From a virus, in the IMG/VR virus record IMGVR_UViG_3300027522_000017, positions 1 through 32,089 of that record: 32,089 nucleotides of DNA; one strand, given 5' to 3'. Each line of letters starts with the position of its first letter. Position 1 is the first letter of the stretch. Positions 9,276-27,706 of this stretch are shown here, piece by piece. Both the position numbers and the translations under genes were made by a program. The notes under the pieces were generated by a model, which saw only the letters and a list, made by a program, of their open reading frames with translations, was not told the origin of the DNA and made no database searches.

Positions 9276-10048
9276 TGTTAGGTACACAATATTATCATGA
9301 GACAATCAGAAAAGTGGTTGTCGCATTTGGTACAATGTTTAATAATATATCATTAGTTCGTAAAGACAGCGATGGTAAAGTAGTTCAGTCTATGAAGGTG
9401 CCATTAGCATATGGGCCTCGGCAAAAGTTTTTGGTTCGACTAGCTGAAGACCCTGACTTGACAAAACAAGTTGCAGTAACTCTACCTAGAATTGGTTTTG
9501 AGATTAACGGTCTTACCTATGATTCTACTAGAAAACTAAATCGTATTCAAAAATTCAAAAAGACTAAGAGTGGAAATTCTAAGCAACTTGAAACACAGTA
9601 TATGCCTGTTCCATATAATGTTGGATTTGAGTTATATGTTCTTGCAAAAAATTCTGATGATGCTTTGCAGATTGTTGAACAAATTTTACCATACTTCCAA
9701 CCTGAGTATACTCTTACTCTTAATGATATGGCGGAGATGGGAATTAAACGAGATGTTCCTATCGTATTAAATAGTATATCATATGAAGACGATTATGCTG
9801 GAGATTTTACATCCAGACGAGCTTTGATCTATACTTTAAGTTTCACTGCAAAATTCTATCTATATGGCCCAGTTACTTCGCAGTCAATTATTAAGACTGT
9901 ACAAGTTGATCAGTTTACAGATATTAAGACAAATATTCCTACACGGGAACAGAGGCTTGTTGTTACACCCAATCCTAGTACAGCTGATGCTGATGATGAC
10001 TTTGGATTTAATGAAACAACTTCATTCTTCCAAGGAGTGGATGAGTAG
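9275..10048 (+). CDS. 15: Tail sheath stabilizer and completion protein gp15
   Basis: The 257-residue protein matches T4 gp15, which caps the completed tail and binds the neck. The N-terminal block YYHETIRKVVVAFGTMFNNI, then RKDSDGKVVQSMKVPLAYGPRQKFLVR and the central NVGFELYVLAKNSDDALQIVEQILPYF are typical family segments. The length is close to T4 gp15 (272 residues). The start ATG overlaps the gp14 stop as TAATG. The 3' end overlaps the start of the second radical SAM gene by 8 nt, and AAGGAG within its own last codons serves that gene. The insertion of accessory genes after gp15 thus left no non-coding scar. Confidence 0.9.
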   Translation: MLGTQYYHETIRKVVVAFGTMFNNISLVRKDSDGKVVQSMKVPLAYGPRQKFLVRLAEDPDLTKQVAVTLPRIGFEINGLTYDSTRKLNRIQKFKKTKSGNSKQLETQYMPVPYNVGFELYVLAKNSDDALQIVEQILPYFQPEYTLTLNDMAEMGIKRDVPIVLNSISYEDDYAGDFTSRRALIYTLSFTAKFYLYGPVTSQSIIKTVQVDQFTDIKTNIPTREQRLVVTPNPSTADADDDFGFNETTSFFQGVDE

Positions 10049-10736
10049 TGTGTATGATGAACGTAAGTCTATCAATATAGAAACATCTATTAGATGCAAC
10101 CTAGAATGCCCTAAATGTGAAAGAAAATATTTACTGGCAAATAATTTACCATTTTTAGGTGGTGATATGTCGGTATCTGACTTTGAAAAGGTTGTAGAAT
10201 ATTATGATAGCATACATCTTATAGGAAACATTTCTGATCCTATTTTTGCTACAAATTTAATAGACTTTCTCAAACTAACTTATGAAAAAAATAAAAAGAC
10301 TATCTTGCACACTGCTGCATCACACAAATCTTCAACTAGGTACACAGAAGCATTTAAGGCTAACGTAAATGCAAAGTGGATTTTTGGTATTGATGGACTT
10401 CCACAAGACAGTCATAAATATAGAATAAACCAAGACGGTAAACATTTGTTTGATATGATGAAACTTGCATTAAACTATGGGTTAACTCCTGTGTGGAAAT
10501 ATATTGTTTTTAAATACAATCAAAATGATATTGCCGAGGCAAGAGCTTTGGCAAAACATAATGGAATAAAATTTAAACCAGTAATGTCAAGTAGGTGGGG
10601 TGAGTCGTATAGATATGGTGAGTGGCAAGATGAGATGTGGGATAAATTTTTATTTGAACCCCGTGCTGTGTATGTCATGGGCAGAGGGATCGTATCTCCG
10701 ATGAGCGACAGCCTCATCAACGATAATAAAGAATGA
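10041..10736 (+). CDS. Radical SAM core protein (copy 2), lacking its C-terminal Fe-S domain
   Basis: The 231-residue protein starts MSSVYDERKSINIE and has CxxxCxxC at C19-C23-C26 (RCNLECPKCERK). It is a paralogue of the protein at 1916. They share SDPIF, HTAASHKSS and FGIDGLPQDSHKYRINQDG, and 51 of 56 bases match between 2246-2301 and 10383-10438. The frame extends about 30 residues further than copy 1 after the SSRW block and then stops, with the auxiliary-cluster cysteines in the next frame (ATGA overlap at 10733). ATG 10041 lies only 3 nt after AAGGAG, so GTG 10050 is a possible alternative start. The gene sits between gp15 and gp16 and overlaps gp15. Its substrate is unknown. Confidence 0.8.
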   Translation: MSSVYDERKSINIETSIRCNLECPKCERKYLLANNLPFLGGDMSVSDFEKVVEYYDSIHLIGNISDPIFATNLIDFLKLTYEKNKKTILHTAASHKSSTRYTEAFKANVNAKWIFGIDGLPQDSHKYRINQDGKHLFDMMKLALNYGLTPVWKYIVFKYNQNDIAEARALAKHNGIKFKPVMSSRWGESYRYGEWQDEMWDKFLFEPRAVYVMGRGIVSPMSDSLINDNKE

Positions 10737-11008
10737 CACTTAATCCCCGTTGTCTTAGAGAAAATGGAAACGATGTATTTTTTTGTGCCACAGGTCATCT
10801 GCTACCATGCTGTGGTTTACAAAGAACTCGTTCTGAAGAAGAAGAAAAAGAGATATCTCGATTCTATAAGGACAGTATGAAGGTTAGTAATGTAGAAAGG
10901 ATTGAAGATATTGTCGAAGGAGAAGAATGGCAATCTTGGTTTGACACACTTATAAATAATCCAGAACAAGCTCCTAATATATGTAAGAGGTATTGTGACG
11001 ATGAGTAA
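10733..11008 (+). CDS. Stand-alone SPASM-like Fe-S domain protein (copy 2)
   Basis: The 91-residue protein parallels the one at 2502. It has an opening TLNPRCLREN, then FFCATGHLLPCCGLQ, a VSNVERIEDIVEGEEWQSWF block matching the partner's VDTIEDIILSTEWLDFF, and a terminal NICKRYCDDE. These cysteines would bind auxiliary [4Fe-4S] clusters. The start ATG forms an ATGA overlap with the stop of the radical SAM core. The offset between the two frames is opposite in direction to that of copy 1, so one shared frameshift event does not explain both splits. The small terminase starts within its last codons, and a TATAAATA late promoter (10951) lies inside its coding sequence. Confidence 0.7.
   Translation: MTLNPRCLRENGNDVFFCATGHLLPCCGLQRTRSEEEEKEISRFYKDSMKVSNVERIEDIVEGEEWQSWFDTLINNPEQAPNICKRYCDDE
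10951..10958 (+). promoter_or_regulatory. T4-type late promoter for gp16, inside the SPASM-like gene
   Basis: An exact TATAAATA lies 42 nt before the gp16 ATG, within the coding sequence of the upstream accessory gene. Initiation about 6 nt downstream would give a leader of about 37 nt that includes AAGAGG. It would let the terminase be expressed late without the radical SAM pair. Because it lies in coding sequence, chance occurrence is possible. Confidence 0.55.
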
Positions 11009-11405
11009 TGAAATTGATAAGGCCTTAGGTGTGGTCGAAAGTCTTCCTAAAAAAATTATTAAACAAGAAGTAGTATCCTCATCTCAAGAAGATTGGGGTG
11101 ATACGAATGAGCATGTGGAGAAAGATTATGAATACCAAAGACAAAACTTCTACAATTTGGTCGAAAAAGGAACGGATGCAGTGGAAGGCATATTGGAGCT
11201 CGCCAAAGAATCGGACCATCCACGAGCATACGAAGTTGCCGGTAACCTTATCAAACAAGTTGCTGAAGTTACTGAAAAACTTGGTGACTTACAAGAGAAA
11301 ATGAGAAAACTAAAAGAGGTGCCTAACAACGCACCAAAGAGTGTGACAAACGCATTATTTGTTGGAAGTACTGCTGAATTGCAAAAGATGTTAAAGGAAA
11401 AATAA
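11001..11405 (+). CDS. 16: Small terminase subunit gp16
   Basis: The 134-residue protein starts MSNEIDKALGVVESLP and fits the T4-like small terminase of marine phages. An acidic N-terminal region (DWGDTNEHVEKDYEYQRQNF) is followed by a coiled-coil-prone central helix pair (DAVEGILELAKES, HPRAYEVAGNLIKQVAEVTEKL, QEKMRKL). The end ALFVGSTAELQKMLKEK is typical of the family. The small terminase forms a ring that regulates the gp17 motor and helps select DNA for packaging. ATG 11001 is preferred over GTG 10995 because AAGAGG lies about 10 nt upstream. In T4, gp16 and gp17 are adjacent; here about 3.5 kb of accessory genes separate them. Confidence 0.85.
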   Translation: MSNEIDKALGVVESLPKKIIKQEVVSSSQEDWGDTNEHVEKDYEYQRQNFYNLVEKGTDAVEGILELAKESDHPRAYEVAGNLIKQVAEVTEKLGDLQEKMRKLKEVPNNAPKSVTNALFVGSTAELQKMLKEK

Positions 11406-11414
11406 AGGATTGTT

Positions 11415-12779
11415 ATGATTGAATTAATGATGGTTGTGATTTACACAATGGCTATATGGGTTATGACCTACCTATTTTCAAAAGGTTATAATACTACAGA
11501 TAAATTTTTAGTTGCTAATCGTGATATCGGAACGGTATCGGGAGGGTTAAGTATTGCAGCGACATGGATATGGGCGCCTGCTTTATTTGTGAGTGCAACA
11601 AAAGCATATACTGATGGGATACCTGGCTTATTTTGGTTTACAGTTCCAAACGTTCTTTGTTTGGTTCTGTTTGCATACTTTGCTTCTTATCTAAGGGAGT
11701 TAGTTCCAGAAGGATTTACTCTTAGTGGATACATTCGTGACAAGGTGAGTCCTAGAGTACAAAAACTCTATTGGGGAGAGATGGGTTACTTGACTATTAG
11801 TGCATTTGCAATTCAACTGCTTGCTGGTGGTATGCTGATGCACAAGATGACAGGTGTTGACTTTACACTCATAACCGTAATCATGGCTGCTATTGCACTT
11901 AGTTATAGTTTGTTTAGTGGAATCAAGGGGTCTATTGTAACTGATTGGGTACAGATGGTAATCATTGCTGTTATGTGCCTTACATTGGTTCCTTGGGCAG
12001 TATCAGAAGGTGGTGGTTGGGAAACCGTTGCTAAGGGTGCGACAGGAAGTGTTTTTGACTTGGATGTTTTTCTGTCCTTTGGTATTGCTGTTAGTATCGG
12101 TCTACTTGCTGGACCGTTTGGCGATCAGATGTTCTATCAAAGAGCATTTAGTATTAAAAAAGAAAAGTTAAAAAAATCATTCTTTTTAGGAGCTGCAATT
12201 TTTGCTATCGTGCCTATCAGTATGGGTATTCTAGGATTTATTGCTACTGGTCTGGATATGAAGGTTGCAGCTGGCTTGGTCAACTACGAGGTAATTAAAG
12301 AGCTGTTGCCTGTGTGGGCAGTCTATCCTTTCTTATTTGCAGTTATGTGTGGACTTCTATCTACATGTGATTCTGCAATGTGTGCTGTAAGTAGTCTTGC
12401 AGCTAAAGATTGGTTTCCTACTTCAGAAATAACTGGTGCTAGAGTTGCTATGGTTGCTCTTGCTGTTCTTGCGGTTGGAATTGCAAATACGCCGGGACTT
12501 GCAGTAGTACATCTGTTCTTATTTCATTCTGCATTTAGAGCATGTACACTTCTTCCTACAGTGCAGGCTGTTCTTTATGATGATATTTATGAACCATCAA
12601 TGTTTTGGGGAATTATTGCATCTCTTATATTAGGATTACCACTGTTCTGTTATGGAATGTTATTCGGTGGCGGTTGGATGTTTATTGCGCCTGGCGCAAT
12701 TATTACAGCTGGTGCAAGTGGTCTGATTGTTTATGTGGGGAGGAAACTTGCGAATGACCGCACTAACGTTGCCAGGTAA
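11415..12779 (+). CDS. Sodium:solute symporter (SSS family) membrane transporter
   Basis: The 454-residue protein is very hydrophobic, with about 12-13 probable transmembrane helices. It carries SSS-family hallmarks: GGLSIAATWIWAPALFVSAT near residues 42-61, EGFTLSGYIRDKVSPRVQ, SLFSGIKGSIVTDWVQM, GDQMFYQRAFS, and LLSTCDSAMCAVSSLAAKDW, which matches the family's Na+-site helix. The first helix block resembles urea (DUR3-like) members, but the substrate cannot be fixed. It would act in the host inner membrane, importing a small solute with Na+. It begins after AAAGGA, 9 nt past the gp16 stop, and overlaps the first synthetase-like gene. The full length and intact motifs argue for function. A transporter between the two terminase genes is unusual. 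Confidence 0.85.
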   Translation: MIELMMVVIYTMAIWVMTYLFSKGYNTTDKFLVANRDIGTVSGGLSIAATWIWAPALFVSATKAYTDGIPGLFWFTVPNVLCLVLFAYFASYLRELVPEGFTLSGYIRDKVSPRVQKLYWGEMGYLTISAFAIQLLAGGMLMHKMTGVDFTLITVIMAAIALSYSLFSGIKGSIVTDWVQMVIIAVMCLTLVPWAVSEGGGWETVAKGATGSVFDLDVFLSFGIAVSIGLLAGPFGDQMFYQRAFSIKKEKLKKSFFLGAAIFAIVPISMGILGFIATGLDMKVAAGLVNYEVIKELLPVWAVYPFLFAVMCGLLSTCDSAMCAVSSLAAKDWFPTSEITGARVAMVALAVLAVGIANTPGLAVVHLFLFHSAFRACTLLPTVQAVLYDDIYEPSMFWGIIASLILGLPLFCYGMLFGGGWMFIAPGAIITAGASGLIVYVGRKLANDRTNVAR

Positions 12780-13827
12780 TCCTTATGTTCCAATTGAGGA
12801 ATTTCCAGAGAGCTCTCGACATTTATCTTCATTTGATAAGAAATATTCAAATATGATGCCGAAAAGATCGGGAATTCTTATTGACAGAAGTAAGACGATT
12901 GATTTCTATAATGGGTCGTTAGATTTTCCAAATACAACTCCCATTCCTAAAATAACTACATCATTGTCCATAGAGGAATGTATAGAGGAGAGTGTATTTA
13001 AATTATGTGAAATTGCTAAAAATAAAAGAATCTATATTCTTTGGAGTGGTGGCATTGATAGTTCCGCTGCTCTTTTAGGTATTTGGAAATATGGAAAGAT
13101 ATTATTTGATAATAATAAAGTAAGCTTATTACATAGTCGCAGCAGTGTGCGAGAAAGTCCTTTTTTATATGATTGGATTGTAAGAAATAAAATATTAACT
13201 GAAGAAGTTGGGTCAGTAACAAAGTTTATTAAAGACCAACCCCAAGGCTCTTCCGACACCAATGATAAAAGTAACATCTATGTCACAGGGGAGATCGGCG
13301 ATCAGATTATGGGCAATTTTCATAATTTATCATCTTTTCCAAATTTGAACGATGAGGAAAACCTTTTAAGTAAGGATATATTTTCTTTCCTAAAACCAAT
13401 TCAAGACAAAGAAAAAAAAGAAGCTTGGAGTTCAGTTGCCCATTTATTATATGATAATCGTAAAACAGAGATTGAAACAGTATTTGACATGTTATCGTGG
13501 TTCACCTTTACCTGTAAATACGAACATCCAAAATATAGATTTTGGTTGGCAGCTGCCAGAAGGATACCCACATACAATTTTTTTGATACAGACGAATTTC
13601 AAAATTGGTCTATGAATAATAATTGGAAAGAAAAGTGTAATGGTAATTGGTGGACGCATTATAAGATGCCATTGAAAAAATTTATATATGATATCACTGG
13701 AAGTGAATATGCACTAACAATGTATAAACAATCGAGTCTAATACAAGATCACAGTGATGAAATAATACAAGAGCGTCGATTTCGTTACATTGATGAGAAT
13801 TTTGAAGTGAGGAGCATCTTTGAATGA
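12754..13827 (+). CDS. Asparagine-synthetase-like PP-loop ATPase (copy 1), no glutaminase domain
   Basis: The protein of about 357 residues has the PP-loop SGGIDSS at residues 98-104 (ILWSGGIDSSAALLG), which binds ATP pyrophosphate. A second motif, VTGEIGDQIMGNF (177-189), stands where asparagine synthetase B has its SGEGADELFGG loop. The N-terminal Cys-nucleophile glutaminase domain is absent, so ammonia, or an amine already on the substrate, would be the nucleophile. Adenylation and amidation or ring closure are the known family reactions. ATG 12754 has GGGGAGGA upstream and overlaps the symporter stop. The stop overlaps copy 2 as ATGA. The second motif is less canonical (IMGN for LFGG) than in copy 2. 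Confidence 0.75.
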   Translation: MTALTLPGNPYVPIEEFPESSRHLSSFDKKYSNMMPKRSGILIDRSKTIDFYNGSLDFPNTTPIPKITTSLSIEECIEESVFKLCEIAKNKRIYILWSGGIDSSAALLGIWKYGKILFDNNKVSLLHSRSSVRESPFLYDWIVRNKILTEEVGSVTKFIKDQPQGSSDTNDKSNIYVTGEIGDQIMGNFHNLSSFPNLNDEENLLSKDIFSFLKPIQDKEKKEAWSSVAHLLYDNRKTEIETVFDMLSWFTFTCKYEHPKYRFWLAAARRIPTYNFFDTDEFQNWSMNNNWKEKCNGNWWTHYKMPLKKFIYDITGSEYALTMYKQSSLIQDHSDEIIQERRFRYIDENFEVRSIFE

Positions 13828-14921
13828 AAGTAAAATATAATGCTCCACATATTTTTGAGGTAGCGCCGCCGTTGCACCATGTAGGTCAATTAGTTCAATC
13901 ATATACGACTGTAGATAGAACTGGTAAGTTTAATACTTTTGATATGATGTATGATGAAATTCCAACTGTAGGAAAATTCAATAAGTCTTGGGAAGAGTGT
14001 TGCATGGATGCAGCCAAAGAACTATGGAAATTAGGAAAACCCATAGAACTATTTTGGAGCGGTGGAATTGACAGCAGCGGAGCTTTGATAGCACTATTAG
14101 AAACTAAATCTGATTCTGATGTATTGAATATTAGATACACGCAAGATTCTATAGATGAGTTTCCTCTGATGTGGGAGAAATTAGTAAAACACAGAAATGA
14201 TCCTCTTCCACATAAAGAAATGTTGGTTGATACTTTATTTGAGAATCATGATATCATAAAAGTTACAGGTGAGTGTGGTGACCAGTTATTCGGTAGTGAT
14301 GCCTTACATGCAAACTTAGATAAACATGCAGATGATTGGGAGAATATTTTTTCTTGGTCTAATAATAACTTATTTAATATAAAATCTGATACGCCAGTGG
14401 ATACACAAGAAAATTACGAATATAAAAAAAATCAGTTAGCTAAAGTTTTATTTGAACATGTGGACTACTCGCCAGTTGAAATAAAAACAATATTTGATTT
14501 ATTTTGGTGGTGTAATTTTTGCTTTAAGTGGCAAGATGTAGATAGTCGTATGATTTTTACGTTTTCTACTACAGCAGATTGGAAGTCCACGATAAGTTTT
14601 TTTAACACTGAGGATTTTCAGAGATGGTCTATAACTAACCACGATATAAAACATGGGGGTACTTGGGAGACATATAAACAACCGGCTAAGGAATATATCA
14701 ACAAATACATTAAAGATGAAACTTATAGAAAAAGTAAAACAAAAGAACCCTCATTAATTAAAATTTTGGCTGGATCAATTGATATAGAATATAATTATGA
14801 ATATAGACAGATGCGGAGAAAAAGGCCTAATATAATTAAGTTAGTATTAGAGGATGGTAGATATTGGAGGAATAGTGATAAAATTCCACAGGAGGTTTAC
14901 GAATCATGCCTAAAAATTTAA
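13824..14921 (+). CDS. Asparagine-synthetase-like PP-loop ATPase (copy 2), no glutaminase domain
   Basis: The 365-residue protein has SGGIDSS at residues 79-85 (LFWSGGIDSSGALIAL) and VTGECGDQLFGSD at 147-159, so both ATP-binding signatures of the asparagine synthetase C-domain are present. It shares with its upstream neighbour the segments ETVFDML/KTIFDLF, a Trp-rich block before FFDTDEFQNWS/FFNTEDFQRWS, and MPLKKFIYD/QPAKEYINK, so the two are tandem paralogues. It has no glutaminase domain. The products may act in sequence or as a heteromer, since their frames are coupled by an ATGA overlap. About 30 nt separate the gene from the large terminase. Substrate unknown. Confidence 0.75.
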   Translation: MKVKYNAPHIFEVAPPLHHVGQLVQSYTTVDRTGKFNTFDMMYDEIPTVGKFNKSWEECCMDAAKELWKLGKPIELFWSGGIDSSGALIALLETKSDSDVLNIRYTQDSIDEFPLMWEKLVKHRNDPLPHKEMLVDTLFENHDIIKVTGECGDQLFGSDALHANLDKHADDWENIFSWSNNNLFNIKSDTPVDTQENYEYKKNQLAKVLFEHVDYSPVEIKTIFDLFWWCNFCFKWQDVDSRMIFTFSTTADWKSTISFFNTEDFQRWSITNHDIKHGGTWETYKQPAKEYINKYIKDETYRKSKTKEPSLIKILAGSIDIEYNYEYRQMRRKRPNIIKLVLEDGRYWRNSDKIPQEVYESCLKI

Positions 14922-14951: not shown

Positions 14952-16598
14952 ATGGTAGAACAATCAGTATATCTAGGAAATCCTAACCTCAAAAGAGCCA
15001 ATGTTGCTCAGTCGTGGACAAAGGAAGAACTTAAAGAGTATCAACGTTGTATGGCAGACCCACAGTATTTTGTGGAAAACTATATTATGATTGTATCTTT
15101 GGATGAAGGTCTAGTACCTTTTAAACTCTATGATTTTCAGAAGGAAATGATAGGAACGTTTCATCAGAATCGTTTTACTATATGTAAGCTTCCTAGACAG
15201 TCTGGAAAATCTACTACTATTATTGCATATTTACTTCATTATGTTTTGTTTAATCCTAGTGTGAATGTGGCTATCCTTGCCAATAAGGCTGCTACTGCAA
15301 GGGACTTACTTGGGAGACTTCAACTCGCATATGAACACTTACCCAAGTGGTTACAACAAGGCGTTATGTCTTGGAACAAAGGCAGCTTGGAGTTAGAAAA
15401 TGGTAGTAAAATACTCGCATCTTCTACTTCTGCAAGCGCTGTTCGTGGTGGGTCTTATAATATTATATTTCTGGATGAGTTTGCCTACGTCCCAGCAAAC
15501 GTTGCAGAACAGTTCTTTAGTTCAGTCTATCCAACAATTAGTTCTGGTAAAACAACCAAGGTAATGATTGTTTCAACTCCACATGGTATGAACATGTTTT
15601 ATAAGTTGTGGACGGATGCAGAGGAGGGAAGAAATACTTATGTTCCAATTGAAGTACATTGGAGCGAAGTTCCTGGCCGTGATGATAAGTGGAAAGCAGA
15701 AACTATTAAGAATACCTCTCAATCTCAATTTAACACAGAGTTTGAATGTGAGTTTCTAGGGTCTATTGATACACTAATCACACCAGCTAAACTTAAACAG
15801 TTGACGTATAGAACTCCAATTCAGTCTAATGCTGGACTAGATGTTCATGTTTCACCACAAGAAGGACACACATACTTTCTTACCGCTGATGTTTCTAGAG
15901 GAACAAAGAATGATTACTCAGCATTTGTAGTGGTTGATGTAACAGAAATACCTTATAAGATTGTTGCAAAATTTAGAGACAACGAAATTAAACCTCTTAT
16001 ATTTCCAGCAAAAATTCATGATGTTGCTCGTGCATATAATCAAGCATTTGTTATGATTGAGGTTAATGACATTGGAGAACAAGTTGCTAGTGCTATGCAG
16101 TTTGACTTGGAGTACGACAACATAATAATGGCTTCCATGCGTGGGCGAGCGGGACAAGTCCTTGGAGGAGGGTTCTCAGGGGGCAGAGCTCAATTGGGGG
16201 TAAGAACCACTAAAGCAGTAAAACGTATTGGTTGTTCTAATCTTAAACAATTAGTCGAGGACAATAAGTTAATTGTTGAAGACTTGGAGATTATCACAGA
16301 GTTATCTACATTTATTGTCAAAGGGCAATCATTTGAGGCTGATGAAGGATGTAACGATGATTTGGTAGCATGTCTGTTTATGTTTGCATGGGCAACAGAC
16401 CAACAATATTTCAAAGAATTATCTGATCAAGACATTCGAGCTACTATGATGAGGGAACAACAAGACTCATTAGAACAAGATATGGCTCCGTTTGGATTTG
16501 TGCTTGATGGTCTTGAAGAGGAAAACTCTGGTCAAATGACTGATGAGTATGGAACTAAATGGAATCCAGTGGTTAGAGACAATCGTTCAAATTGGTAA
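14952..16598 (+). CDS. 17: Large terminase subunit gp17 (packaging ATPase and nuclease)
   Basis: The 548-residue protein is a complete T4-type packaging motor. The ATPase domain has an adenine-binding FKLYDFQKEMI segment (57-67), Walker A in LPRQSGKSTT (about 80-89), Walker B IIFLDE (171-176) and a coupling motif VSTPHG (208-213). The RNase H-like nuclease domain has D313 (FLTADVSRG), E370 (VMIEVND) and D469/D470 (GCNDDLVA). It cuts concatemeric DNA and drives it into the prohead through the gp20 portal. The length is close to T4 gp17 (610 residues). No Shine-Dalgarno sequence is visible before the ATG. It ends 4 nt before the convergent minus-strand gene, with no obvious terminator between them. 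Confidence 0.95.
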   Translation: MVEQSVYLGNPNLKRANVAQSWTKEELKEYQRCMADPQYFVENYIMIVSLDEGLVPFKLYDFQKEMIGTFHQNRFTICKLPRQSGKSTTIIAYLLHYVLFNPSVNVAILANKAATARDLLGRLQLAYEHLPKWLQQGVMSWNKGSLELENGSKILASSTSASAVRGGSYNIIFLDEFAYVPANVAEQFFSSVYPTISSGKTTKVMIVSTPHGMNMFYKLWTDAEEGRNTYVPIEVHWSEVPGRDDKWKAETIKNTSQSQFNTEFECEFLGSIDTLITPAKLKQLTYRTPIQSNAGLDVHVSPQEGHTYFLTADVSRGTKNDYSAFVVVDVTEIPYKIVAKFRDNEIKPLIFPAKIHDVARAYNQAFVMIEVNDIGEQVASAMQFDLEYDNIIMASMRGRAGQVLGGGFSGGRAQLGVRTTKAVKRIGCSNLKQLVEDNKLIVEDLEIITELSTFIVKGQSFEADEGCNDDLVACLFMFAWATDQQYFKELSDQDIRATMMREQQDSLEQDMAPFGFVLDGLEEENSGQMTDEYGTKWNPVVRDNRSNW

Positions 16599-16602
16599 GT
16601 TA

Positions 16603-16902
16603 CTATATAAACTCAATAAGATCGTTATCTATTTTAATAAAACAATTTGAACAAAGGACAGTAGATTGATATATTAGTTCAGTAACTTCCCTTCGGCTTT
16701 CATCATTCATACCTTTACGTTGAGTTAATTTTCTTATTTTGTTGTTGTGTGGATAAAATTTTAAACATACAGTCTCACTTTCACCACAATGAGAACATGA
16801 CTTTTCTGCAAGATATTCGTTAAGCCATACAATGCGCTGACGATAATTACGTTTTGATACACTTTTTATAGTATCTTTATATTTTTCATAATGTTCATTC
16901 AT
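16603..16902 (-). CDS. Small HNH-like zinc-binding protein, degenerate
   Basis: The 99-residue protein is the only gene on this strand. It has two zinc-knuckle pairs, CSHCGE and VLCSNCF, with LKFYPHNNKIRKL between them. That is the layout of small HNH proteins (CxxC, a His-containing strand, then CxNCH). The usual first catalytic His of the HH pair reads FYPH here, and the final CxNCH reads CSNCF. It is therefore either a divergent nuclease or a non-catalytic relic of a homing-type element. The start is placed at MNEHYEKYKDT because a TATAAATA on the same strand lies exactly 5 nt upstream. A start 24 nt earlier would have to lie upstream of that promoter. It converges on gp17. Confidence 0.6.
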   Translation of the reverse strand: MNEHYEKYKDTIKSVSKRNYRQRIVWLNEYLAEKSCSHCGESETVCLKFYPHNNKIRKLTQRKGMNDESRREVTELIYQSTVLCSNCFIKIDNDLIEFI

Positions 16903-16907
16903 AGGAT

Positions 16908-16915
16908 TATTTATA
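16908..16915 (-). promoter_or_regulatory. Late promoter for the minus-strand gene, predicted leaderless
   Basis: TATTTATA on the + strand reads TATAAATA on the minus strand. With T4 geometry (-13 to -6), +1 falls on 16902, the A of the ATG. There is no room for a Shine-Dalgarno sequence. The same spacing occurs at 26143. Confidence 0.55.
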
Positions 16916-16958
16916 AGAATCCTCACATATAAAAACAGTGTTTTAGGAATCTGTTTTT

Positions 16959-23041: not shown

Positions 23042-24283
23042 ATGTCCGAATTAGAACAAACAATTGAGGAGCTTGAAGCAGAGGTATTGGCGGAACTAGA
23101 AGAAGCCAGTCAACCATCCGATTCGGGTGGAAAAGCAGATGCTCCCCAAAAAGTAAAAGATGAGGTCAACGACGAAGAAGACCTCGGCGGTGCAGAACCC
23201 GAAGCAAAAGTAGAGAAGGGTGCTGACGAAGATCGTAAAGAAAAAGAACTTGGTAAGAAAGCATCTGCTTCTGCTAAAGCTGTTTCTGGTGATGCACAAC
23301 AGAAAAGTGCTGGTAAATCTGATGGTCCTCAGAAGCTTGCTGCATCTCACGAACCAGAAGAAGGTGAAGTTGTTTCAGAAGCAAAACTTACTAAAGCACA
23401 GGCAATCGAACAGATTGGTAAGATGAAGAAGTCTGAAATCGAAGAGATGCTTGCTTCTCATGCTTCTAAACTTGCTGAAGCTGGTAAAGCTCAGACTGAA
23501 GAAGAACTTGAAAAACTTCAAGCTGAGAAAGATGCTATCGAAGAGAAAATTAAGTCAATTAACGTTGCAGAAGATGTTGATGCTCTAATGGCTGGTGAAG
23601 ACCTCTCCGAAGAATTTAAAGAAAAGGCTGCAACAATTTTTGAGGCAGCTGTTAAATCTAAGATACGTAGTGAAGTTGTGCGAATGGAAGAAGGCTACAG
23701 TGTTGCTCTTGATGAAGCTACTGATACAATAAAAGAAGAATTGTCAACTAAAGTTGATAACTATCTTGGTTACGTTGTTGAAGAGTGGATGAAGGAGAAT
23801 GAACTTGCTGTTGAACGTGGTCTAAAAGGTGAAATCGCCGAGGACTTTATTGTTGGTCTAAAACAATTGTTTGAAGATCATTACATTGATGTTCCCGACG
23901 AAAAGTATGACGTTCTGGAAGCTCAAGCAGAAAAGATTGCTGAGTTAGAAGAAAAACTCAACGAAAAGATTGAAGAAAACGTTGAGAAAAGAAAAGTGGT
24001 TGAATCTCTAACAAGAGAACAGATTACCAGTGAAATTTCACATGATCTGGCTAGTACTGAAGTAGAGAAATTCAAGTCGCTTACAGAAGATGTTGATTTT
24101 GTTTCTGAAGATTCCTTCCGGGCCAAACTAGACACCTTGAAAGAAAGCTATTTCCCAAAAAGTCTTGGGGAAGCACAATCTTTCTTAATTGATGATGAGA
24201 ATAGTGAGACTGCACAGGACATTGATACGACTGAAAGCATTCGTGCTTACATGTCGGCAATCAGTCGTACAAAGAGTGCATGA
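23042..24283 (+). CDS. 22: Prohead scaffold protein gp22
   Basis: The 413-residue protein is highly charged, lysine- and glutamate-rich and strongly helical, as expected for the T4 gp22 main scaffold. An acidic, Ala/Lys-rich disordered N-terminal part (about 1-120) precedes long coiled-coil-prone helices. The conserved C-terminal block contains VDNYLGYVVEEWMKENELAVERG, EIAEDFIVGLKQLFEDHYIDVP and KYDVLEAQAEKIAELEEKLNE. It is longer than T4 gp22 (269), mainly in the N-terminal part. Sequences such as SKLAEAGK and VVSEAKL fit gp21 cleavage sites. It builds the internal core of the prohead and is then degraded. It has its own late promoter just upstream, and gp23 has another just downstream. Confidence 0.9.
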   Translation: MSELEQTIEELEAEVLAELEEASQPSDSGGKADAPQKVKDEVNDEEDLGGAEPEAKVEKGADEDRKEKELGKKASASAKAVSGDAQQKSAGKSDGPQKLAASHEPEEGEVVSEAKLTKAQAIEQIGKMKKSEIEEMLASHASKLAEAGKAQTEEELEKLQAEKDAIEEKIKSINVAEDVDALMAGEDLSEEFKEKAATIFEAAVKSKIRSEVVRMEEGYSVALDEATDTIKEELSTKVDNYLGYVVEEWMKENELAVERGLKGEIAEDFIVGLKQLFEDHYIDVPDEKYDVLEAQAEKIAELEEKLNEKIEENVEKRKVVESLTREQITSEISHDLASTEVEKFKSLTEDVDFVSEDSFRAKLDTLKESYFPKSLGEAQSFLIDDENSETAQDIDTTESIRAYMSAISRTKSA

Positions 24284-25756: not shown

Positions 25757-26140
25757 ATGGCATATAGCAAAGAACTATTAGATCATTATGAGAACCCACG
25801 AAATGTAGGCTCATTTGATAAAGAAGATGACGGAGTAGGAACAGGACTTGTTGGAGCTCCTGCTTGTGGAGATGTTATGAAACTCCAAATTAAAGTTGAA
25901 GAAGGAATTATAACTGACGCTAAATTTAAAACATTTGGGTGTGGAAGTGCAATCGCTTCATCTAGTCTGGTTACAGAGTGGGTCAAAGGACGCACACTAG
26001 AAGCAGCAAATGATATTAAGAATACAGAAATTGCAAAAGAACTAGCACTACCACCTGTCAAGATACATTGTTCAATTCTTGCAGAAGATGCCATAAAGGC
26101 TGCTGTCAGTGACTATGTGAAAAAATGTGAATGTAAATAA
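25757..26140 (+). CDS. iscU: IscU-type iron-sulfur cluster scaffold protein
   Basis: The 127-residue protein is a near-canonical IscU. It starts MAYSKELLDHYENPRNVGSF and has all cluster-binding residues: C37 and D39 (GAPACGDVMK), C62 (FGCGSAIASSS) and H104-C105 (KIHCSILAEDA). The chaperone-recognition loop LPPVK is intact at 98-102, so it could engage host HscA/HscB. Length and sequence are close to E. coli IscU (128 residues), except for a C-terminal CEC (C124, C126) that E. coli lacks. IscU assembles [2Fe-2S] and [4Fe-4S] clusters from sulfur delivered by IscS. Several phage proteins here would need such clusters. It lies just after the gp23 terminator with no clear ribosome binding site, so expression may depend on read-through. 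Confidence 0.95.
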   Translation: MAYSKELLDHYENPRNVGSFDKEDDGVGTGLVGAPACGDVMKLQIKVEEGIITDAKFKTFGCGSAIASSSLVTEWVKGRTLEAANDIKNTEIAKELALPPVKIHCSILAEDAIKAAVSDYVKKCECK

Positions 26141-26735: not shown

Positions 26736-27170
26736 ATGGATAAGTTAAGTGAATTGCAGGCGGAAGCCAAAGAAGACCTTATTATATTAGATGATGAAGA
26801 TTTACACCAACAATCATATAAAAATCAAATCATAAAACCAAAATGGTTAGACTATAAGTCTAAGTATCGATTACTCATGTTTCAATTGAAAGCTGATCAT
26901 AAAAGGTTGTATAGACAAAAATGGGAGTATTATGGAGGCAAGTCAGGTGCTAAAGTATATGCTGCAAAACCGTTTGACTTGAAAGTTTTAAAAACTGATA
27001 TGGGAGTTTATATAAACTCTGATGATGAGATAATTGATATAGAGTTAAAAATTGAATATTATGAAACTCTGGTTCAGTATGTTGACGGTATAATTAAGTC
27101 TATAGACAATCGTAGTTGGGATATTAAACATGCACAAGATTGGAAGAAATTTGTGGCTGGTGGTTTCTAA
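26736..27170 (+). CDS. uvsY: Recombination mediator UvsY
   Basis: The 144-residue protein matches UvsY (T4: 137 residues), which loads the UvsX recombinase on ssDNA covered by gp32. Family signs are the paired KPKWLDYKSKYRLLMFQL and KRLYRQKWEYYGGKSG segments, LKTDMGVYINSDDEI, and the end NRSWDIKHAQDWKKFVAGG. The ribosome binding site TGGAG lies about 7 nt before ATG. The stop overlaps the next start as TAATG. Its location ahead of uvsW, gp55 and gp47 matches the usual marine T4-like recombination module, although two oxygenase genes are interposed. Confidence 0.9.
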   Translation: MDKLSELQAEAKEDLIILDDEDLHQQSYKNQIIKPKWLDYKSKYRLLMFQLKADHKRLYRQKWEYYGGKSGAKVYAAKPFDLKVLKTDMGVYINSDDEIIDIELKIEYYETLVQYVDGIIKSIDNRSWDIKHAQDWKKFVAGGF

Positions 27171-27706
27171 TGAAGAAATGGATTGGATACTATGAAAACA
27201 TTATAGATGATGCTGGGTGTAAATCTATTATGAATTACCCTTGGGAGTTAAAACCATCAACTTATGCTAATCATAAAGGACAAAGCCGCAATAGCGAAGA
27301 ACGAGTTAAAATGGATGAGGTTTGGTGTAAGGAAGATAATAAGCCATATCCATTACTTAAAAAGTCTGTTATTGAGGTTATGAATATATATTCACAGGAA
27401 CAGAAACATTTTTCTTGTGTACATCATACAGATTTTAGGCTTAATAAATATGATGTTGATGGGTTTATGTCACCACATTGTGATAACATCCATCATTCTC
27501 ATGGACAACTTTATGGATACCCTCAAGCAACGGTATTATTTTTTCTAAATGATAATTATGAAGGTGGGGAGTTTTATGTTGCAGAAAATTGTTATAGTCC
27601 GAAATCTGGGTCTGCTATAATTTTCCCAGCAAACTTTATGTTTCCACATGAAGTAAAAAAAATAACAAAAGGCGAAAGGTGGAGTATAGTATCATGGCTG
27701 ATGTGA
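27170..27706 (+). CDS. Prolyl-4-hydroxylase-type Fe(II)/2-oxoglutarate oxygenase
   Basis: Starting at ATG 27170 (MKKWIGYYENII), the 178-residue product has a full P4H-type active site: H103 and D105 (SPHCDNIH), H160 (MFPHEVKK) and R170 (GERWSIVSW). FRLNKYDVDGFMSPH and ATVLFFLNDNYEGGEF are typical beta-helix strands of this family. Such enzymes hydroxylate prolines or other side chains, and phage members near uvsY are common in marine T4-like genomes. The start overlaps the uvsY stop as TAATG and the 3' end overlaps the next oxygenase by 13 nt. The protein target is unknown. Confidence 0.85.
   Translation: MKKWIGYYENIIDDAGCKSIMNYPWELKPSTYANHKGQSRNSEERVKMDEVWCKEDNKPYPLLKKSVIEVMNIYSQEQKHFSCVHHTDFRLNKYDVDGFMSPHCDNIHHSHGQLYGYPQATVLFFLNDNYEGGEFYVAENCYSPKSGSAIIFPANFMFPHEVKKITKGERWSIVSWLM

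Follow-up and report, generated by a model that had tools for sequence, protein, structure and literature searches.

Why would a marine phage place a membrane transporter and a pair of ATPases between the two subunits of its terminase? The arrangement lies in a 32,089-base IMG/VR virus record of a marine, T4-like myovirus, the whole of which is referred to below as the window. The window terL shares 70% identity with its counterpart in Methylophilales phage Melnitz and 68% with the one in Pelagibacter phage HTVC008M; on sequence, the phage is T4-like and near the Methylophilales and Pelagibacter phages, and its host is likely a marine heterotroph. The late block runs gp13-gp14-gp15-terS-...-terL-gp18-gp19-gp20-gp23, gene names other than those tested with profiles having been assigned by sequence and order. 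Three genes, encoding a 454-aa membrane protein and two proteins of ~365 aa, separate terS from terL:

10951..10958, + strand: T4-type late promoter motif TATAAATA, 44 nt upstream of terS
10995..11405, + strand: terS, terminase small subunit (phrog_445, 3.6e-46; Pfam DNA_Packaging, 8.9e-7)
11415..12779, + strand: sodium:solute symporter (SSS) of a phage-dominated subfamily, phrog_20720 (Pfam, fold model, Na2 residues, dN/dS)
12754..13827, + strand: PP-loop ATPase 1 (PPL1), AsnB-like synthetase without a glutaminase domain (SGGIDSS and GEIGDQ motifs)
13824..14921, + strand: PP-loop ATPase 2 (PPL2), of the PPL1 superfamily (motifs; model pLDDT 91.5)
14952..16598, + strand: terL, terminase large subunit, closing the block (Pfam Terminase_6N, 2e-22)

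The genes are tightly packed. The PPL1 frame is open from 12727, with an ATG at 12754 that overlaps the 3' end of the SSS gene, and the successive gaps from terS to terL are 9, -20, -4 and 30 nt when the PPL1 start is taken as 12760. The same terS-SSS-PP-loop-terL order recurs in independent contigs from several datasets (L002-L005), so the SSS locus is not chimeric; an assembly artefact or host contamination was ruled out on the same grounds.

Several other genes of this phage deserve mention. A small gene with CxxC motifs and no Pfam match (16603-16926, - strand) lies between terL and gp18, a position kept in many related contigs. At two places, 9864-10736 with 10733-11008 and 1874-2509 with 2412-2810, a radical-SAM gene is followed by a separate overlapping ORF that resembles the cysteine-rich, SPASM-type C-terminal half (LLPCC motif); the split is also present in several other marine phage contigs (for example L188, L421 and L424), and split genes and programmed frameshifting are both candidate readings. 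A NifU/IscU-type Fe-S scaffold (25757-26140; Pfam NifU_N, 7e-53) directly follows the capsid gene, and an IscA-like Fe-S protein adjoins terL in a related phage (L424, 7696-8001); these Fe-S proteins possibly serve the radical-SAM enzymes of the same phages. Genes resembling 2OG-Fe(II) oxygenases or Asp/Asn hydroxylases are found by Pfam at 719-1408, 1405-1929 and 27140-27706.

The SSS gene has an ATG start and no internal stops. Its product matches Pfam SSF (PF00474) at E=1.9e-11 (43.9 bits against a cut-off of 22.8), reaches 7.6e-20 with the TIGR00813 superfamily model, which is under that model's curated cut-off, and matches phrog_20720, annotated as 'unknown function', end to end (1.4e-117). 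An AlphaFold model built from 63 aligned rows (mean pLDDT 93.8) predicts a LeuT-type fold of about 13 TM helices with helices 1 and 6 broken, and its best PDB matches are CHT1, DUR3, SGLT2 and SiaT, at a TM-score of about 0.8. Among the 63 aligned relatives the Na2-site residues S316 and T317 are conserved in 62 and 61, and the TM5 residues (TDxxQ) T176, D177 and Q180 in 57, 62 and 59. The dN/dS between the window SSS and six viral copies is 0.05-0.15, and the complete viral copies, with 63-100% identity to the window, all have open frames; together these rule out a decayed gene. The Pfam match, the model, the Na+-site residues and the dN/dS point to a working transporter under purifying selection. 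The original prediction of a full-length SSS between the terminase subunits, with its hallmarks intact, is thus borne out by the SSF match, the LeuT-fold model and the retained Na2 and TM5 residues, and the intact predicted Na+ site and dN/dS likewise favour its proposal that the phage carries what looks like a Na+-driven importer.

What the importer carries had been suggested from a likeness of its first conserved helix to DUR3, and hence to urea transport and nitrogen supply. The likeness holds in part: among solved structures DUR3 gives the best sequence-profile match (E=5e-40), and it has a similar TM1 (W-x-W-A). By fold, however, the top-ranked structure is CHT1, with DUR3, SGLT2 and SiaT on a par behind it, and the SSS tree contains no DUR3 sequence. 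The DUR3 chains in the PDB are urea-proton symporters by name. Identity in the structural alignment is ~18%, and DUR3 is 704-773 aa long against 454 aa for the window SSS. A DUR3 Ser-Ala pair aligns with S316-T317 of the window family, the Ala replacing the Na2 residue T317, and urea specificity was not accepted on account of this difference in the cation-site pair. No curated SSS equivalog or substrate model in NCBIfam reaches its cut-off with the window SSS, and the protein fits no substrate clade. Because DUR3 lacks an equivalent of T317 and no substrate clade fits, the step from resemblance to urea or nitrogen supply is unsupported.

A broader form of that idea is that replication is fed by imported urea or by some other source of nitrogen or carbon, the PP-loop genes being unrelated or sharing the nitrogen. 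The DUR3 profile match is in its favour, as are the transporter genes pstS and amt known as auxiliary genes of marine viruses (PMC6359870). We nevertheless consider it unlikely: the Na2 residue T317, which the window family keeps, is absent from DUR3, and the neighbouring enzymes, the timing signals and the company kept by related loci, described in turn below, all count against it.

The two genes that follow the SSS gene had been described as amidotransferase-like, a description that did not survive closer analysis. Both products carry the PP-loop SGGIDSS and a GExGDQ motif, and S79, G80, G81, D83 and S84 are invariant in 26 aligned PP-loop rows. Neither a class I nor an Ntn class II glutaminase domain was found in PPL1 or PPL2 with Pfam and NCBIfam, and PPL2 has no room for one, since its PP-loop starts at residue 79. 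A glutamine-amidotransferase identity was ruled out for both on this basis, and the lack of a glutaminase domain also weighs against nutrient supply. PPL1 has no Pfam or NCBIfam family, and both proteins fall below detection by Pfam Asn_synthase. In the PDB the PPL2 model matches asparagine, beta-lactam and carbapenam synthetases best, although these matches are weak (E 1e-3 to 1e-2, TM about 0.3). We read PPL1 and PPL2 as PP-loop ATPases resembling divergent AsnB-type synthetase halves, which would activate an acid with ATP. They share with asparagine and beta-lactam synthetases the SGGxDS and GExGDQ motifs and these weak fold matches, and differ from asparagine synthetase in lacking the N-terminal glutaminase domain. 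A search of phage isolates with the PP-loop enzyme gave one distant match, in Pseudomonas phage Cygsa01 (27%), so no isolate close to the window has the enzyme.

The block also carries a signal for when it may be expressed. The motif TATAAATA has an established late promoter role in T4 and would be expected to act likewise here. Its copy at 10951..10958 is the only exact one in the terS-terL block and the 80 nt upstream, and other copies precede gp13, gp18, the gene at 23042 and gp23. The window holds 9 exact copies against 3.7 expected, a number reached in 0 of 100 shuffles. From the motif before terS and the overlapping or nearly touching genes we infer one late transcription unit that includes the terminase, and SSS and PP-loop expression is accordingly predicted to be late, with packaging. 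Such timing would fit a product used in packaging or assembly better than supply for replication; the late-promoter position and tight packing with the terminase genes are a further point against a nutrient role.

Whether the importer and the enzymes belong together can be judged from other loci. Viral and bacterial collections were scanned for SSS relatives, giving 158 loci and 106 rows after dereplication. The subfamily is found chiefly in phages and prophages, and a PP-loop gene lies at most five genes from the SSS gene in 82 of the 106 rows; the partner is PAPS-reductase-like in 69, a full AsnB-like enzyme in 7, a member of the window PP-loop family in 4 and another type in 2. The remaining 24 rows have no PP-loop gene within five genes and include the marine L010, L012 and L013, although in the L010 phage other parts of the contig do carry PP-loop genes. 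In the SSS tree the marine phage copies form one clade with support 100 and a long stem, and the prophage clade is adjacent (support 91); deeper placement is unsure because of very long outgroup branches.

In Clostridia and Treponema the SSS gene lies in prophage-like loci, and several of the carriers come from animal guts. The typical prophage order is [small gene]-SSS-PAPSR(260 aa)-ParB-PAPSR(384 aa)-ParB-TerS-TerL, where PAPSR denotes the PAPS-reductase-like protein; other viruses have ParB-SSS-PAPSR(433 aa)-ParB, and the complete SSS-PAPSR-ParB-PAPSR-ParB cassette is present in a cultured lysogen, Anaerotruncus colihominis DSM 17241 (L097). PAPS-reductase and ParB-like partners do not suggest bulk nitrogen, which again disfavours nutrient supply. 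Cellular chromosomes of Desulfobacterota, Armatimonadota, Kaiserbacteria and Moraniibacteriota also have the SSS gene adjoining an AsnB-like or PP-loop gene, and in Kaiserbacteria (L102), Moraniibacteriota (L115) and Xanthobacteraceae (L127) the neighbour is a homologue of the window PP-loop enzymes. In the full-length AsnB-like genes beside cellular SSS genes the catalytic Cys2 of the glutaminase is missing (MG for MC), so the nucleophile donor of these enzymes need not be glutamine. In two phage contigs a small protein is encoded directly after the SSS gene (L307, 3312-3920; L309, 3417-4025); its N-terminus is signal-like and it weakly resembles porins (Pfam Porin_2, E=0.002, in L307), as if an outer-membrane entry accompanied the importer.

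This distribution bears on a second alternative, that the SSS takes up proline, betaine or ectoine against salinity and adjoins PP-loop genes by coincidence. Both the SSS and TRAP families include osmolyte carriers. In a 2026 survey, solute/sodium symporters found in estuarine viruses are interpreted as genes for coping with salt stress (PMC13288924). Adaptation to salinity is however not obvious for the Clostridia and Treponema prophages, several of which come from animal guts; the proline transporter PutP is distant from the window subfamily in the SSS tree, and the recurrent PP-loop partners are left unexplained. We regard an osmolyte importer as distinctly improbable.

Residues W51, W53, P55 and Q238, which from general SSS architecture we take to surround the ligand, are invariant or almost so in copies from marine phages, gut prophages and chromosomes alike, a pattern suggesting that all members of the subfamily bind a single class of ligand.

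A search with the PP-loop enzyme alone, in which the SSS was not used, added 106 loci, where the window PP-loop enzymes have relatives next to TctA/TctC (L191-L193, L195, L212 and L218), the TRAP components DctQ/DctM/DctP (L204 and L238) and TRAP-TAXI systems with fused permease and a binding protein (L236, L241, L244 and L250). Across the 106 loci, proteins with at least six predicted TM helices make up 16 of 518 within three genes of the PP-loop gene and 0 of 402 beyond (p=1e-4), or 11 of 340 against 0 of 293 after dereplication (p=0.001); the three-gene limit was picked after seeing the data, and a two-gene limit gives a weaker p of about 0.03. The PPL2 clade of the PP-loop tree (16 rows, support 96) has members next to SSS genes, in two separate places, others next to TctA and others with no importer. 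The importer is thus exchanged while the PP-loop enzyme stays. Exchange is not universal pairing, as 43 of the 80 PP-loop tree rows have no importer within the stretch examined.

The PAPS-reductase prophages present a similar picture. Where the SSS gene is absent, the slot before ParB-PAPSR may hold an ABC permease with an NMT1-type binding protein (L298, L306 and L308) or a 333-aa protein that hhalign relates to the SSS at 92.9%. The PAPS-reductase profile was derived from SSS neighbours, so the enrichment of SSS genes obtained with that query is biased and was not counted as independent; the swapped importers are free of this bias. This short protein occupies the SSS slot in six loci (L293, L294, L295, L299, L304 and L305), at 332-353 aa and with 7-8 TM helices and a SIAATWAG motif; it has no Pfam family and looks like a shortened SSS relative.

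Two features of the TRAP-type loci were also recorded. DctP-type solute-binding proteins without a visible signal peptide occur in L204 (12316-13275), L213 (4603-5622) and L236 (192-1136), and would remain cytoplasmic; those of L236, L241 and L250 directly precede the PP-loop gene. Tandem divergent PP-loop genes stand beside a single TRAP importer, five in L238 (3497-9482) and three in L204 (5890-9403).

The exchanged importers inform the question of cargo. SSS, TctA/TctC and TRAP systems typically carry organic acids and zwitterions, and AsnB-type enzymes activate carboxylates; on these two grounds the cargo is most likely an acid or an amino acid. Since PP-loop relatives adjoin TctA, TRAP and TRAP-TAXI systems, an acidic cargo is favoured over ammonia or urea, and the association of the same enzymes with organic-acid importers is a last point against nutrient supply. 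The SSS cargo is probably a small, acidic molecule.

A third alternative is that gaps among late genes gather metabolic cassettes, importers and PP-loop enzymes both being frequent there with no joint function. The terS-terL gap is indeed highly variable in isolates, holding a tryptophan halogenase and a dioxygenase in HTVC008M and an F5/8 type C protein in Melnitz, and importers are found without PP-loop genes and vice versa; part of the pairing may therefore reflect a shared site preference. As a control, 78 new loci centred on terL were collected. Importers were present in 8 of the 20 with a window-family PP-loop gene and in 6 of the 58 without (p=0.006). A search of the whole records of the six importer-only loci found no window-family PP-loop gene, all six being fragments, and one of them (L401) has a QueC-like PP-loop gene directly behind TctA. 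Given these counts and exceptions, the pairing is a real enrichment and not a rule. The enrichment thus survives the terL-centred control; moreover, unrelated prophages repeat the pairing in the fixed order SSS-PAPSR-ParB-PAPSR-ParB-TerS, and several different PP-loop families pair with SSS genes, in cellular chromosomes as well. A shared insertion site as the whole explanation therefore seems to us rather unlikely.

Our main reading is that the SSS and the two PP-loop ATPases form one functional unit, in which a working Na+-driven importer feeds an ATP-dependent activation, and we give it a probability of about one half (0.5). The reading starts from an intact importer and intact PP-loop motifs in a tight block, purifying selection, a pairing repeated in unrelated phages and the exchange of importers. 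Under it, the importer would be produced late in infection alongside the terminase and would take up a small organic compound, probably an acid, which would also be the substrate of the enzymes. The AsnB-like proteins would activate that substrate by ATP (adenylation), and the activated substrate would be joined to a partner that the phage needs modified, candidates for which are a DNA base, a tRNA, a protein, a glycan or a free metabolite. That PP-loop enzymes are kept while importers are swapped suggests that the virus imports a small molecule to process it and not just to feed the cell. A wider generalisation, which we put forward tentatively as possible but doubtful, is that phages carry widespread 'import-and-attach' cassettes, each a PP-loop ligase or transferase with an interchangeable importer (SSS, short SSS-like, TctA/TctC, TRAP, TRAP-TAXI or ABC), the molecule being put on phage DNA or another component; swaps of importer and ligase would then change the attached group.

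Transporter genes of phages are generally interpreted as a means of feeding the host cell during infection. Should this importer serve a partner enzyme instead, 'auxiliary metabolic genes' assigned to sulfur (cysH-like), nitrogen and carbon could be one system, and the chemistry of the product becomes directly testable, with the cultured lysogen (L097) opening an experimental route.

Compared with known members of the SSF family (TC 2.A.21; PutP, SiaT, SGLT and CHT1), the window SSS shares the SSF profile, the LeuT-type fold and the Na2 and TM5 motifs, and differs in belonging to a subfamily of its own, dominated by phages and prophages, which lies below every curated equivalog cut-off and has near-invariant W51-x-W53-A-P55 and AGPFGDQ motifs. 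The original view that phage-encoded secondary transporters are uncommon is fair, but there is precedent: ORF234c of Aeromonas phage 44RR2.8t is annotated as SSF (PMC1524935). That protein is an SGLT-like SSS; BLAST shows no similarity between it and the window SSS, its gene has no annotated PP-loop neighbour, and orthology was ruled out as the two do not align. The gene tctA has been reported on SUP05 viral contigs, where its role is given as unknown (PMC4164917). Along with pstS and amt, these resemble the present case as importer genes in tailed phages. Phage SSS, tctA and prophage PAPS reductases are each on record, but a search of the open literature gave no account of importer and PP-loop genes paired in this way with exchange of the importer. 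PAPS reductases in Clostridium prophages have been recorded (PMC11318856), listed there as single host-metabolism genes and not as a cassette with an exchangeable importer, whereas the PAPS-reductase (cysH-like) and ParB-like genes of the temperate phages analysed here accompany the same SSS subfamily in a fixed order ahead of TerS.
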